From contig CACEBX010000002.1 in the NCBI GenBank assembly GCA_902557845.1, positions 62,001-126,000 of the forward strand: DNA of 64,000 nucleotides. The letters are read 5' to 3'. The notes under the pieces were generated by a model. That model was not told the DNA's origin. It was given only the letters and a program-made list of their open reading frames with translations, and ran no database searches. The position numbers and the translations under genes are program-made. This document shows, piece by piece, positions 54,230-59,612 of this stretch. Position 1 is the first letter of the stretch. Every line of letters begins with the position of its first letter. The DNA is from Rhodospirillaceae bacterium. GTDB lineage: Bacteria > Pseudomonadota > Alphaproteobacteria > TMED109.

Positions 54230-54262
54230 GTTAATAATATAGCACAACTAATTAACATTGCA

Positions 54263-54290
54263 AATGATTATCATTACTATTGAGAATAAT
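54263..54290. promoter_or_regulatory. Fur/Irr-like operator candidate
   Basis: AATGATTATCATT (54263-54275) is a near-perfect inverted repeat of the kind bound by Fur-family regulators, and TGAGAATAATT (54281-54291) looks like a second half-site one turn away. It lies about 35 bases upstream of the first gene of the peroxiredoxin operon. The choice among Fur, Irr or PerR-type control cannot be made from sequence. Confidence 0.45.
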
Positions 54291-54370: not shown

Positions 54371-55817
54371 CTAGATTCTAGTATTAAATTTATTTTTCCA
54401 AAATAAAATAGGTAAAAAAGTTGCTGCAATGAAAGAAATAAATAGCAGTGATTGTGAAACATAAGTAGGAAAATATTCAATTGGTATAAGCACTCCTACT
54501 AAAATTGATTTCGTAAAATCTGGTGCAGGAAAAAAAAGAATCCCTGACAACAAACCTGCTAATATTGCAATAAAGATACGCCTCTCTTCAAGTTTATCTT
54601 TATAAAAGCCATAAAAAACAGTTAATACAGCAGCACAACAAAAAAGATCAGCTAAAAGAAATAAATATAAAACACTTAAACCTTTAGATGCAACTACAAA
54701 TACTATTAAAGATATAAAAATCAAAACTATTTTTGATAAAAATAAACTGTCTGCTTTAAAAGCTATAACATGTTTGACATCTACCACTATTAGACTTGAA
54801 ATTGCATTAATCAAAGTATCTATGCTACTAACGGTAAGAGAAACCGCCAAAAATACTGTTACTAAAGATATAACTACTTTTTGCTCAATTAATAATAAAG
54901 AAAAAAAAGCTAAATCTGGTACTACATCTACATTATATGATATTGCTACTAGCCCTGAGAAGCCCATCATAAAAACTATAGGAATTATTATAAAAAAAGA
55001 AATGACAAGACTCTTTTCCAAAACTTTTTCATTTTTAGCTGCATAAACTCTTTGCCAATTACCTTGATGAAATAAATTTGTAGCTGTAACTGCAATAAAA
55101 AAAGTTATACCAGCAGTAAAGTTAGTATAATAAGTAAAACTTATTAAATTAGGGTTTTTATCGTTAATAAAGTTAAAATTAAAAATTGAAGAGTTAAAAT
55201 AAACTAAGAATGAAAAACTAATCAGTAATAATGTTATTAACATTAAAAATTGTATACTATCAGTTAATATTGAAACTCTTAATCCTCCGTACAAAGTATA
55301 TGTAAGAGAACTAGAAATTATAATAATAGAGGTTATCCATAAAGGTGTACCAGATAAATAGTTTACAAGCATTGCAACAGCTGTTACTTCAGCTATTAAA
55401 AAAATTATCATGTAAAATATAGACAAAATTAATATAAGTTTAAATAATCTTTTTCCATACTTTAGTCTGACTACCTCAATTAAGGTTTTTCCTTCAGGGT
55501 ACTGATACCTTAACTTTTTTCCTAATTTTATAAGTATAAATAGTGGAAAAGCTGTTCCTATTGCATAACCTATAACTGCACCAATCCCCCCCCCAGGTAG
55601 CTGCTGAGGCGGGTCCAAAAAGTATCCAGGTTCCTAAAGCTGATGCCACTAAACTGAATGTTAATGGATAAAGGTTCATCGACCTATTTGCTACTAAATA
55701 ATTTGTTAGTCCTTTAAATTTTCTTGAGTAAAAAATTCCTAATATAACAAATAGAAAACTTACAAAAAAAAGAACACCTATAGAAGAAGCCTGATTCAAA
55801 ATATTAGTTGGATTCAT
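54371..55817 (-). pseudogene. thiV: ThiV-like sodium:solute symporter, frameshifted in a G9 run
   Basis: A solute:sodium symporter family transporter of about 480 residues read in two frames. The N-terminal part (from the ATG at 55817) ends with GPASAATWGG, and the frame that continues (IGAVIGYAIGTAFPLF onward, through about 12 further helices) is shifted at a run of nine G on the coding strand (55586-55594). Eight G would restore one uninterrupted reading frame. The TPP riboswitch immediately upstream marks it as a thiamine-precursor transporter, as in SAR11 ThiV, thought to import the pyrimidine HMP. It may be a sequencing or assembly error, a true pseudogene or a slippage-controlled gene. 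Confidence 0.75.
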
Positions 55818-55886
55818 GTTATCCCTTTCTGAATTACCGGACAGGTTCTATGGGTATAATCTCAGCTTAAAGCACCCCAAGAAAAC
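55818..55886 (-). ncRNA. TPP riboswitch (THI element)
   Basis: On the minus strand the leader carries the THI core in order: GGGGTGC, GCTGAGAT, ATACCC, GAACCTG, CCGGTAAT and AGGGAT, with a GTT/AAC closing pair. The element ends directly at the ATG of the thiV-like gene, and its conserved AGGGA also serves as the ribosome-binding site. This suggests translational control, with TPP binding hiding the Shine-Dalgarno sequence. Confidence 0.93.
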
Positions 55887-55940
55887 TTTAATAAAAAAAA
55901 TTACATTGTAATTTTAATATATAAAAGCTTACTAGATTTA

Positions 55941-56335: not shown

Positions 56336-56410
56336 ATGTGGAAAACACCTGAAATTCGCGAAGTTGCTGTTGGTTTAGAAATCAATTGTTACGCATGCGC
56401 AGAGCTTTAA
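56336..56410 (+). CDS. pqqA: PQQ precursor peptide PqqA
   Basis: A 24-codon gene starting at 56336. The peptide contains the glutamate (Glu15) and tyrosine (Tyr19) in the E-I-N-C-Y arrangement that PqqE and later enzymes join to form PQQ. It has a strong GGGAG ribosome site (56325-56329). It is followed after 55 bases by pqqB. The cysteines next to the tyrosine are unusual but tolerated in this variable peptide. Confidence 0.95.
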   Translation: MWKTPEIREVAVGLEINCYACAEL

Positions 56411-56465
56411 GTTCTGAATAATACATTGCCATGCTAGTTGCTCTTTTAGATTATAAGTAAATATA

Positions 56466-57395
56466 ATGTTTATTAAAGTTCTAGGAGCGGCAGCTGGCGG
56501 TGGTTATCCTCAATGGAACTGCAACCATCCAAATAGTAGACTAGCAAGAAGTAAAACTAGTAAGGCATTGCCAAGGACTCAATCTTCTATTGCTGTTAGT
56601 ATAGATAAAAATAAATGGTACATTTTAAATGCATCCCCAGATTTAAGGCAGCAACTTTGGGAAAATCCTGAATTAATGCCTTCACCTGAAGATCCTCTAA
56701 GATATAGCCCTATCATGGGAGTAATTTTAACAAATGCTGACGTTGATCATACTGCAGGATTAATAAATCTTAGAGAATCTCAAAAATTTAACCTATATGC
56801 TACCAAAAGAGTGTTAGATGTTTTAGGAAAAAATAGTATTTTTAATGTACTAAATCCAAAGTTTGTAAAAAGAATGCCAATAGAATTAGACAATATATTT
56901 AATCTTCATGACACAGAAGATAATTTTAGTGGTATTTCAATTAAACCTTTCGCTGTTCCTGGAAAAGTTGCACTTTGGTTAGAGGATGAAAGTAAAGGAA
57001 AAAACTTTGGATCTGTTGAAGAAGATACTATTGCATTAGAAATAAATTCTGCTACTAAAAAATTCTTTTACATACCTGCTTGTGCAAGTATACCAGATTG
57101 GCTGTTAACTAAATTAGATAATAGCGAATTAGTTTTTTTTGATGGAACATTGTGGCAGGATGATGAAATGATAAAACAAAACGTAGGAATAAAAACAGGA
57201 AAAAGAATGGGTCATATAAGTATGTCAGGAGAAGAAGGATCAATAAATATTTTAAATAAGATAAATATCAAAAGAAGAATTTTTATTCATATCAATACTA
57301 CAAACCCATCTTTATTAGAAGATTCAAAAGAAAGAGAAATAGCAAGTAAAAATGGTTGGGAAATTTCCTACGATACCATGGAGATAAGCTTATGA
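56466..57395 (+). CDS. pqqB: PQQ biosynthesis hydroxylase PqqB
   Basis: A 309-residue metallo-beta-lactamase-fold protein. It begins with the typical VLGAAAGGGYPQWNC, and NADVDHTAGL near residue 97 carries the metal ligands, as in PqqB, which is thought to hydroxylate the crosslinked Glu-Tyr intermediate. GHISMSGEEGSI and IHINTTNPSL near the end are also conserved. Its stop overlaps the pqqC start (ATGA at 57392-57395). Confidence 0.95.
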   Translation: MFIKVLGAAAGGGYPQWNCNHPNSRLARSKTSKALPRTQSSIAVSIDKNKWYILNASPDLRQQLWENPELMPSPEDPLRYSPIMGVILTNADVDHTAGLINLRESQKFNLYATKRVLDVLGKNSIFNVLNPKFVKRMPIELDNIFNLHDTEDNFSGISIKPFAVPGKVALWLEDESKGKNFGSVEEDTIALEINSATKKFFYIPACASIPDWLLTKLDNSELVFFDGTLWQDDEMIKQNVGIKTGKRMGHISMSGEEGSINILNKINIKRRIFIHINTTNPSLLEDSKEREIASKNGWEISYDTMEISL

Positions 57396-58189
57396 TAATG
57401 CCAGCACCTTTTTTTCCAGGCAAGCAAAATTATAAAACAGCAGGTAAATCTAAACTATCTAGACAACAATTTATAAAGGCACTAAGTGACCTGGGTAAGG
57501 TCAGATATCATAGCCTGCATCCATTTCATAAGCTTTTACATAATGGCAAACTGTCTTTTAGTCAAGTTCAAGCTTGGGCTTTGAATAGATTTTACTATCA
57601 ATGGTCTATCCCTAGAAAAGATCTAACTTTAATGGCAAGAATTAATGATGTTAATTTAAGACTAGAGTGGAGATCAAGGGTAATAGATCACGAAGGTGAT
57701 ATTGATGGAAGTGGAGGAATAAAAAGATATTTGCAACTATGTGAAACCTTAAAATTAGACCTTGACTATGTTAAATCATGTCAGGGAATACTTCCCGCAA
57801 CTAGGTTTGCTGTTGATGCTTACGTAAATTTTGTACAAGAGAAATCATTACTTGAAGGCATAGCTTCCTCACTCACTGAAATTTATGCACCTGCTATACA
57901 TAAAGAAAGAATAGCGGGACTTGCAAAACATTATGATTGGGCTAATGATTATGCTTTAGCATACTTTAAGAAGAGAATTAATCAAGCTAGAAGAGATGTT
58001 GAATTTGGAAGAGAATGGGTTATAAATAACGCTATGACTCGAAGCGATCAAGAAGCTGTTCTAAATGCAGTAAAATTCAAAACAGAAGTGCTTTGGGCAC
58101 AACTTGATGCACTCTATTACGCTTATGTAGACCCAGGAAATATTCCTCCTGGAGCATATATTCCTAAAAAATCTAGCAAGAAAGAATAA
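57392..58189 (+). CDS. pqqC: PQQ synthase PqqC
   Basis: A 265-residue oxidase that performs the final eight-electron oxidation and ring closure to PQQ. RYHSLHPFHKLLHNGKLS near residue 36 and the helix segments with QAWALNRFYYQ are nearly diagnostic. I chose the ATG at 57392, which overlaps the pqqB stop, rather than the longer frame from 57356 that reads through pqqB. The stop base also overlaps the pqqD start. Confidence 0.96.
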   Translation: MIMPAPFFPGKQNYKTAGKSKLSRQQFIKALSDLGKVRYHSLHPFHKLLHNGKLSFSQVQAWALNRFYYQWSIPRKDLTLMARINDVNLRLEWRSRVIDHEGDIDGSGGIKRYLQLCETLKLDLDYVKSCQGILPATRFAVDAYVNFVQEKSLLEGIASSLTEIYAPAIHKERIAGLAKHYDWANDYALAYFKKRINQARRDVEFGREWVINNAMTRSDQEAVLNAVKFKTEVLWAQLDALYYAYVDPGNIPPGAYIPKKSSKKE

Positions 58190-58479
58190 TGGTTGAGCTA
58201 ATTAAATTAAAATCTGATGACATGCCTAAATTACCTAGGCATGCTAAATTAAGATATGATGAGGCAAGAAAAAAGTGGATTATTAATGCCCCAGAAAGAG
58301 TATTTGAATTGGATGAAATAGCAGCAGAAATTATGCAAATGATTGATGGAAACCTAAGTATTAATCAAATAGTAGATAAACTTGCTAATAAGTTTGAAAA
58401 TGCTCCAAAAGAACAGATATCAAAAGATGTAATTATTATGTTGCAATCTTTAGCAGATAAGGGTTTTGTAATAAAATGA
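58189..58479 (+). CDS. pqqD: PQQ peptide chaperone PqqD
   Basis: A 96-residue RiPP recognition-type chaperone. LPRHAKLRYDEARKKWIINAPERV near the N-terminus and the LSINQIVDKLA helix are the PqqD pattern. It binds PqqA and presents it to PqqE, which is encoded immediately after with a 4-base overlap. Confidence 0.93.
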   Translation: MVELIKLKSDDMPKLPRHAKLRYDEARKKWIINAPERVFELDEIAAEIMQMIDGNLSINQIVDKLANKFENAPKEQISKDVIIMLQSLADKGFVIK

Positions 58480-59612
58480 TGCAGAAAAATTCAAAAATTG
58501 AATGTAAAAAAACTAGTTACCTTACACCTGAGAAAAAAAGTAAGATGTTAATTCCCTATGCTGTACTTTGTGAATTAACGCATAGATGTCCTCTATCCTG
58601 TCCATATTGCTCTAACCCAGTACAACTTGAAATGAAGTCAAACGAAGTAAATACAGAAATTTGGAAAAAAGCTTTAACTGAAGCTGTAAAACTAGGAATT
58701 TTACAAGCTCATTTTTCTGGTGGAGAGCCTACCGCAAGAAAAGATTTAGAAGTTTTAATAAATCATGCTTCTAAGGAAGGGTTATATACAAATCTTATTA
58801 CTTCAGGTGTTTTAGTAAACGAAGAAAGGCTCAAAAAACTTTATGACTCTGGATTAGATCACGTGCAAATATCAATTCAAGACACAGATCCTAAAAATTC
58901 AGAGAAAATTGCTGGTTTCAAAGGACATAATAAAAAACTAGAAGTCTGTAAGCTTGTTAGAAAAGTTGGATTACCCTTAACTATAAATTCAGTAATGCAC
59001 CGTCAAAATTTACATAATCTAAAATCTATGATTGAATTAGCTGTAGAATTAGATGCAGAAAGACTTGAAGTAGCTCAAGTACAATACTATGGATGGGCCT
59101 TAAAGAATCAAACTGCATTTCTACCTACTAGAAAACAGCTAGATAATGCTACAAAAGTTGTAGAAGAAGCAAGAATAAAATATAAAGGGATTCTTGCTAT
59201 AGACTATGTAGTACCAGATTATTATGCGAAAAAACCAAAATCATGTATGGGAGGCTGGGGAAGACAATTTTTGAATATTACTCCTGCAGGAAAAGTATTG
59301 CCTTGCCATGCTGCTGAGTCTTTAACTTTTCTTGATTTCGATAATATAAAAGAAAAACCACTGTCATGGATCTGGGAACATTCTCAATCATTCAACAGGT
59401 TTAGAGGAACTGATTGGATGCCAGAACCTTGTAGGTCTTGTGATAGGAGGGAAATAGACTGGGGTGGTTGCAGATGTCAAGCATTTGCTTTAACCGGAAA
59501 TGCTGATGCTGCTGATCCAGCATGTGAGTTTTCTCCTTACAGAAATGTTCTAGAAGAGCCTTTATCAAAAGCAGGAACTGATACTCCAAAGTTTATTTAT
59601 AGAAAATTTTAA
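58476..59612 (+). CDS. pqqE: PqqA peptide cyclase PqqE (radical SAM)
   Basis: A 378-residue radical SAM enzyme that crosslinks Glu15 and Tyr19 of PqqA. Cys38-x3-Cys42-x2-Cys45 binds the catalytic cluster. Further cysteines toward the C-terminus (CMGGWG, LPCHAA, PCRSCDRREIDWGGCRC, PACEFSP) form the SPASM auxiliary sites. It completes the pqqABCDE operon. No PqqF-type protease follows directly. Confidence 0.96.
   Translation: MMQKNSKIECKKTSYLTPEKKSKMLIPYAVLCELTHRCPLSCPYCSNPVQLEMKSNEVNTEIWKKALTEAVKLGILQAHFSGGEPTARKDLEVLINHASKEGLYTNLITSGVLVNEERLKKLYDSGLDHVQISIQDTDPKNSEKIAGFKGHNKKLEVCKLVRKVGLPLTINSVMHRQNLHNLKSMIELAVELDAERLEVAQVQYYGWALKNQTAFLPTRKQLDNATKVVEEARIKYKGILAIDYVVPDYYAKKPKSCMGGWGRQFLNITPAGKVLPCHAAESLTFLDFDNIKEKPLSWIWEHSQSFNRFRGTDWMPEPCRSCDRREIDWGGCRCQAFALTGNADAADPACEFSPYRNVLEEPLSKAGTDTPKFIYRKF

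Follow-up and report, generated by a model that had tools for sequence, protein, structure and literature searches.

The locus described here raises the question of whether a thiamine-regulated transporter gene that is recorded as interrupted, at a run of nine G, is switched, decayed, recently mutated or simply misrecorded. The window, that is, the whole stretch of 64,000 nucleotides analysed, comes from a Rhodospirillaceae bacterium, and the features on which the answer depends all lie on its minus strand:

55805..55889, minus strand: TPP riboswitch aptamer (THI element) with a very short variable arm (RF00059, 43.8 bits, E 1.1e-7)
55822..55826, minus strand: AGGGA at the 3' edge of the aptamer, likely the ribosome-binding site, from the sequence, four bases before the ATG
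55494..55817, minus strand: 5' part of thiV from its own ATG, with ~76 native residues followed by 31 missense residues and a stop
55586..55594, minus strand: G9 run over conserved Trp-Gly-Gly codons, i.e., the in-frame length plus one G
54371..55585, minus strand: 3' part of thiV, open, 404 aa and a stop, 93% identical to the intact gene of a congener (G003)

Anatomy of the riboswitch-thiV locus

The first-pass annotation had proposed that the THI element leads straight into the gene, with AGGGA as the ribosome site, and this is what we observed: the RF00059 match runs from 55889 to 55805, with the gene following directly, and GGGA stands just ahead of the start codon in 57 of 57 aligned riboswitch copies. 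The match spans the full length of the covariance model, which places the element in this riboswitch family, and the riboswitch core (GGGGTGC, GCTGAGA, ACCC, GAACCTG and AGGGA) is present here and conserved in relatives. The element, whose variable arm is very short, scores under the 54.3-bit gathering threshold and is consequently missed by a default Rfam scan. Masking of the ribosome site by the P1 helix is plausible from the base pairing, with seven of eight pairs possible in the window; since own-pairing in the 57 copies is barely higher than cross-pairing (5.05 vs. 4.69), we do not claim P1 covariation as proof of such masking. Single-strand folding of the riboswitch was no better than that of shuffles (z 0.70), so the evidence for the riboswitch is the covariance model together with the conservation. 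Each of the four genus genomes carries one TPP riboswitch, always on thiV. These four riboswitches (L169-L172) score 37-44 bits, below 54.3, and default annotation would therefore miss them.

The interruption itself is directly visible in the sequence. The C9 at 55586-55594 of the plus strand is G9 on the coding strand of thiV; reading in frame 0 from the ATG at 55817 gives 107 aa up to a stop at 55494, and the symporter continues in another frame of the same strand, which is open between 55585 and a stop at 54371. In profile searches, the N-terminal piece corresponds to symporter model positions 7-59 (PutP, TIGR02121, E 1.8e-4) and the downstream piece to positions 40-409 (TIGR00813, E 2.4e-17, under the curated cut-off). 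The two pieces in different frames, together with relatives that are in frame, bear out the earlier statement that the symporter goes out of frame at this run and that eight G would restore it. A TTG at 55618 was tried as an alternative start of the 3' part and dropped because the N-terminal part common to all relatives would then be missing. The gene matches the sodium:solute symporter family profile (PF00474, 39.6 bits vs. a cut-off of 22.8), and its association with a TPP riboswitch and homology to SAR11 thiV assign it to ThiV. That is, the window gene is a TPP-riboswitch-controlled thiV encoding an SSS-family symporter, a kind already known. By analogy with SAR11 ThiV, a proposed HMP importer likewise under a TPP riboswitch (PMC11452348), its substrate is likely HMP, the pyrimidine precursor of thiamine, consistent with the uptake of a thiamine precursor suggested at first pass.

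Two further features of the neighbourhood are worth recording. A cluster that looks like one for PQQ biosynthesis adjoins thiV at 56336-59612 on the plus strand, where a 24-aa PqqA-like ORF (MWKTPEIREVAVGLEINCYACAEL, 56336-56410) is followed by PqqB-, PqqC-, PqqD- and PqqE-like ORFs. On the other side, a Fur-box-like palindrome (AATGATTATCATT, 54259-54290) lies between thiV and the end of a divergently placed ORF, with AhpC/AhpD-like genes beyond, and a sequence resembling this palindrome is also found downstream of thiV in another congener, G002.

The G run in the genome and among relatives

A run of nine G is unusual in a genome of 29% GC, and the first impression that it is striking in such AT-rich sequence was well founded: it is the sole G/C run of at least nine in the 1.308 Mb genome. 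In the 797 kb of the window genome that were sampled, G/C runs of length 5, 6, 7 and 9 number 148, 14, 2 and 1, respectively, and no G/C run of at least eight was found besides G9. Codon choice accounts for most of its length. The site in relatives encodes A-(T/S)-W-G-G-(I/V/L)-G-A, coded TGG GGN GGN, which alone supplies six of the eight in-frame G, and in G003, the closest relative (93% identical in protein sequence across the downstream part), it reads TGG GGC GGG. In the window, both motif glycines are GGG, which makes an in-frame G8; with one more G, the run becomes the recorded G9 and the frame shifts. Given that GGG represents ~10% of the glycine codons in the long open frames of the window, two GGG in succession after Trp are roughly a 1% event, for which selection is not needed.

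To compare the run in related thiV genes, as had been proposed, we applied a site pattern that tolerates extra or missing bases to 28 genomes of the family. Nine genomes matched, eight of them in frame and the window's own not. A further 58 thiV loci from public genomes are all in frame at the Trp-Gly-Gly site, the longest run there being four G in 55 of the 58 and an in-frame G7 in L059; these loci overlap in part with the records of the family genomes (e.g., L034 is G003:C48), which puts the combined total at ~66 at most. Two loci missed by the pattern (L045 and L078) both read TWGGLG in frame. The comparison, which is at the level of related species, thus found the site in frame in all relatives. 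At that level, it yields the observation that the first-pass annotation had named as refuting, namely independent sequences in which an in-frame run length is fixed. A run of at least eight G at the site occurs in none of the ~66 homologues, that is, the tract is neither conserved nor recurrent as in SSR phase-variable genes and, judging from these sequences, the G9 run is private to the window genome and not a maintained contingency tract. A tract kept in no lineage examined counts against an evolved slippage switch.

The scan of the collection used a single protein as query, and a scan of viral contigs found no relative. One short thiV match (L091) was considered as a comparable frameshift and dropped, as it runs into unrelated sequence near the contig end; it is a SAR11 thiV, probably with a chimeric join.

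Selection, frameshift background and thiamine genes

Relative to G003, the window thiV shows dN of ~0.036 and dS of ~0.145, i.e., a dN/dS of ~0.25, a pairwise value that is compatible with very recent loss as well; the ratio is 0.16 upstream of the break and 0.28 downstream. No second lesion was found in the comparison with G003, and the gene shows neither the multiple lesions nor the relaxed selection of a pseudogene. To place the single lesion in context, the frameshift background was estimated from sampled stretches of the window genome vs. G003 (253 genes, 219 kb of coding sequence). One-base insertions interrupt two of the 253 window-genome genes, thiV and a gene on contig C28; in the latter (L211, G000:C28, near 9018), an A run is one A longer than in G003. 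In the reverse comparison, single-base frameshifts, mostly at A runs, interrupt 5 of 351 genes in G003. The thiV of G002 (L021, G002:C2) is broken at another homopolymer, T7 -> T6, around codon 139; N bases also occur in this record close to the start of the gene, so that the break may itself be an error. Hence, it is ordinary for these draft assemblies to show single-base indels, be they errors or real mutations, in genes that are otherwise intact, and the genome's longest G run is a likely site for one.

The thiamine gene content of the genus indicates what the loss of thiV would mean. ThiC (PF01964) was not found by profile search in any of the four genus genomes, including those that are 97% and 91% complete, and ThiE is kept, with TMP synthase-family proteins in all four. 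HMP-P kinase is present in three of the four genomes and was not found in the window genome (72% complete), an absence that may be due to incompleteness. In G003, the kinase gene and thiE share a contig, 20 kb apart; the thiE contig of the window genome is only 28 kb long. Among transporters, no PF02133 (CytX-type) member was found in the genus and the only ThiB-like match was well under the cut-off. The organism is probably an HMP-auxotrophic marine alphaproteobacterium. With ThiC absent, ThiE kept, no PF02133/CytX transporter and the sole TPP riboswitch on thiV, a true thiV null is expected, from gene content, to be costly.

Explanations for the extra G and relation to known systems

We favor, as the probable explanation, a technical error, introduced in amplification, sequencing or assembly, at a G8 that arose by chance. 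The Trp-Gly-Gly motif acquired its in-frame G8 through two synonymous GGG codons, and an error at this homopolymer would then have added one G to the record, the extra base presumably being absent from the living population. This explanation is favored by the relatives being in frame at the site throughout (8 family and 58 public loci), by the gene having no second lesion and a dN/dS of ~0.25 vs. G003, by the cost that a true null should carry, by the other +1 homopolymer frameshift in the same assembly and the five single-base frameshifts in G003, and by the position of the site at the longest G run of the genome. Against it, the assembly shows no such break in 251 of the 253 genes compared, a real deleterious mutation can be present in any one cell or strain that happens to be sampled, and the C28 frameshift could be real too.

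Alternatively, it is possible, albeit distinctly less probable, that the extra G is a real private mutation, in which replication slippage in the chance G8 very recently knocked out thiV in the sampled cell or its lineage, either a doomed cell or one that covers its B1 need by other means. Runs of at least eight G are highly mutable in bacteria (PMC6321876), and the thiV of G002 is also broken, although the N bases in that record suggest that this break, too, may be an error. The private mutation is made less probable by the absence of a second lesion or any surplus of amino acid change and by the absence of an alternative HMP route in the genus as searched, with the window genome only 72% complete. 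The read error that had been among the initial suggestions survives as one of the best-fitting readings, but it does not stand alone, as a private one-base mutation fits beside it.

A contingency locus, where the run length would slip in the population and toggle HMP uptake beneath the riboswitch, seems to us improbable. The G9 does lie within coding sequence, one step off the in-frame length, and tracts of at least eight G drive such switching in Campylobacter (PMC6321876). However, the tract is missing in every relative, the 93% identical congener included, no other G/C run of at least eight was found in 797 kb whereas phase-variable genomes have many (PMC6321876), and the thiV product brings in an apparently required precursor, not a surface trait. 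The slippage (phase-variation) site suggested by the first-pass annotation is thus not upheld, with the tract conserved in none of ~66 homologues and no other tract as long in the genome. That G8/G9 is a real variable site, with HMP uptake being heterogeneous in a marine population through a contingency switch under the riboswitch, appears very improbable.

We give even less credence to a real frameshift that the cell would put right during expression, either because transcription slips on the G run or because the ribosome shifts by +1 there. AT-rich symbionts do rescue homopolymer frameshifts in intact, selected genes in this way, but these cases are poly-A/T (PMC3017870); in E. coli and Buchnera transcriptomes, homopolymer insertions were all in A/T runs, with G/C runs judged not slippage-prone (PMC5574713), and the G tract here is not conserved in relatives. 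Finally, an old pseudogene in decay, another of the initial suggestions, is the least credible of all since, despite the interrupted frame, there is a single lesion where more would be expected, and the rest of thiV is intact (riboswitch, start and stop included) and under purifying selection (dN/dS ~0.25).

Interest in the site is low unless real length variation appears in reads; were the frameshift genuine and widespread, some members of an HMP-auxotrophic marine population would be unable to take up the precursor. As things are, the locus serves as a caution: with a short TPP riboswitch that scores under the Rfam gathering threshold and a one-base indel besides, the sole HMP importer recognised in the genus could be overlooked by annotation pipelines.

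With respect to known systems, the locus is like the poly-G phase-variable genes of Campylobacter (PMC6321876) in having G9 in coding sequence, one base off the in-frame length, and unlike them in that its tract is neither conserved in relatives nor repeated in the genome, and is known from one recorded length. With the rescued frameshifted genes of Blochmannia and Buchnera (PMC3017870), it shares a single homopolymer indel in an otherwise intact gene of an AT-rich genome, although their tracts are poly-A/T, some conserved among lineages, and the one in the window is poly-G and private. The system it resembles is SAR11 ThiV (SAR11_0811 type). While the frame break at the Trp-Gly-Gly codons is found in the window record only, and HMP transport by the window protein is a prediction, both are SSS symporters whose genes follow a TPP riboswitch directly, both occur in organisms without ThiC, and the downstream part of the window gene is 64-69% identical to most of the SAR11 homologues recovered.
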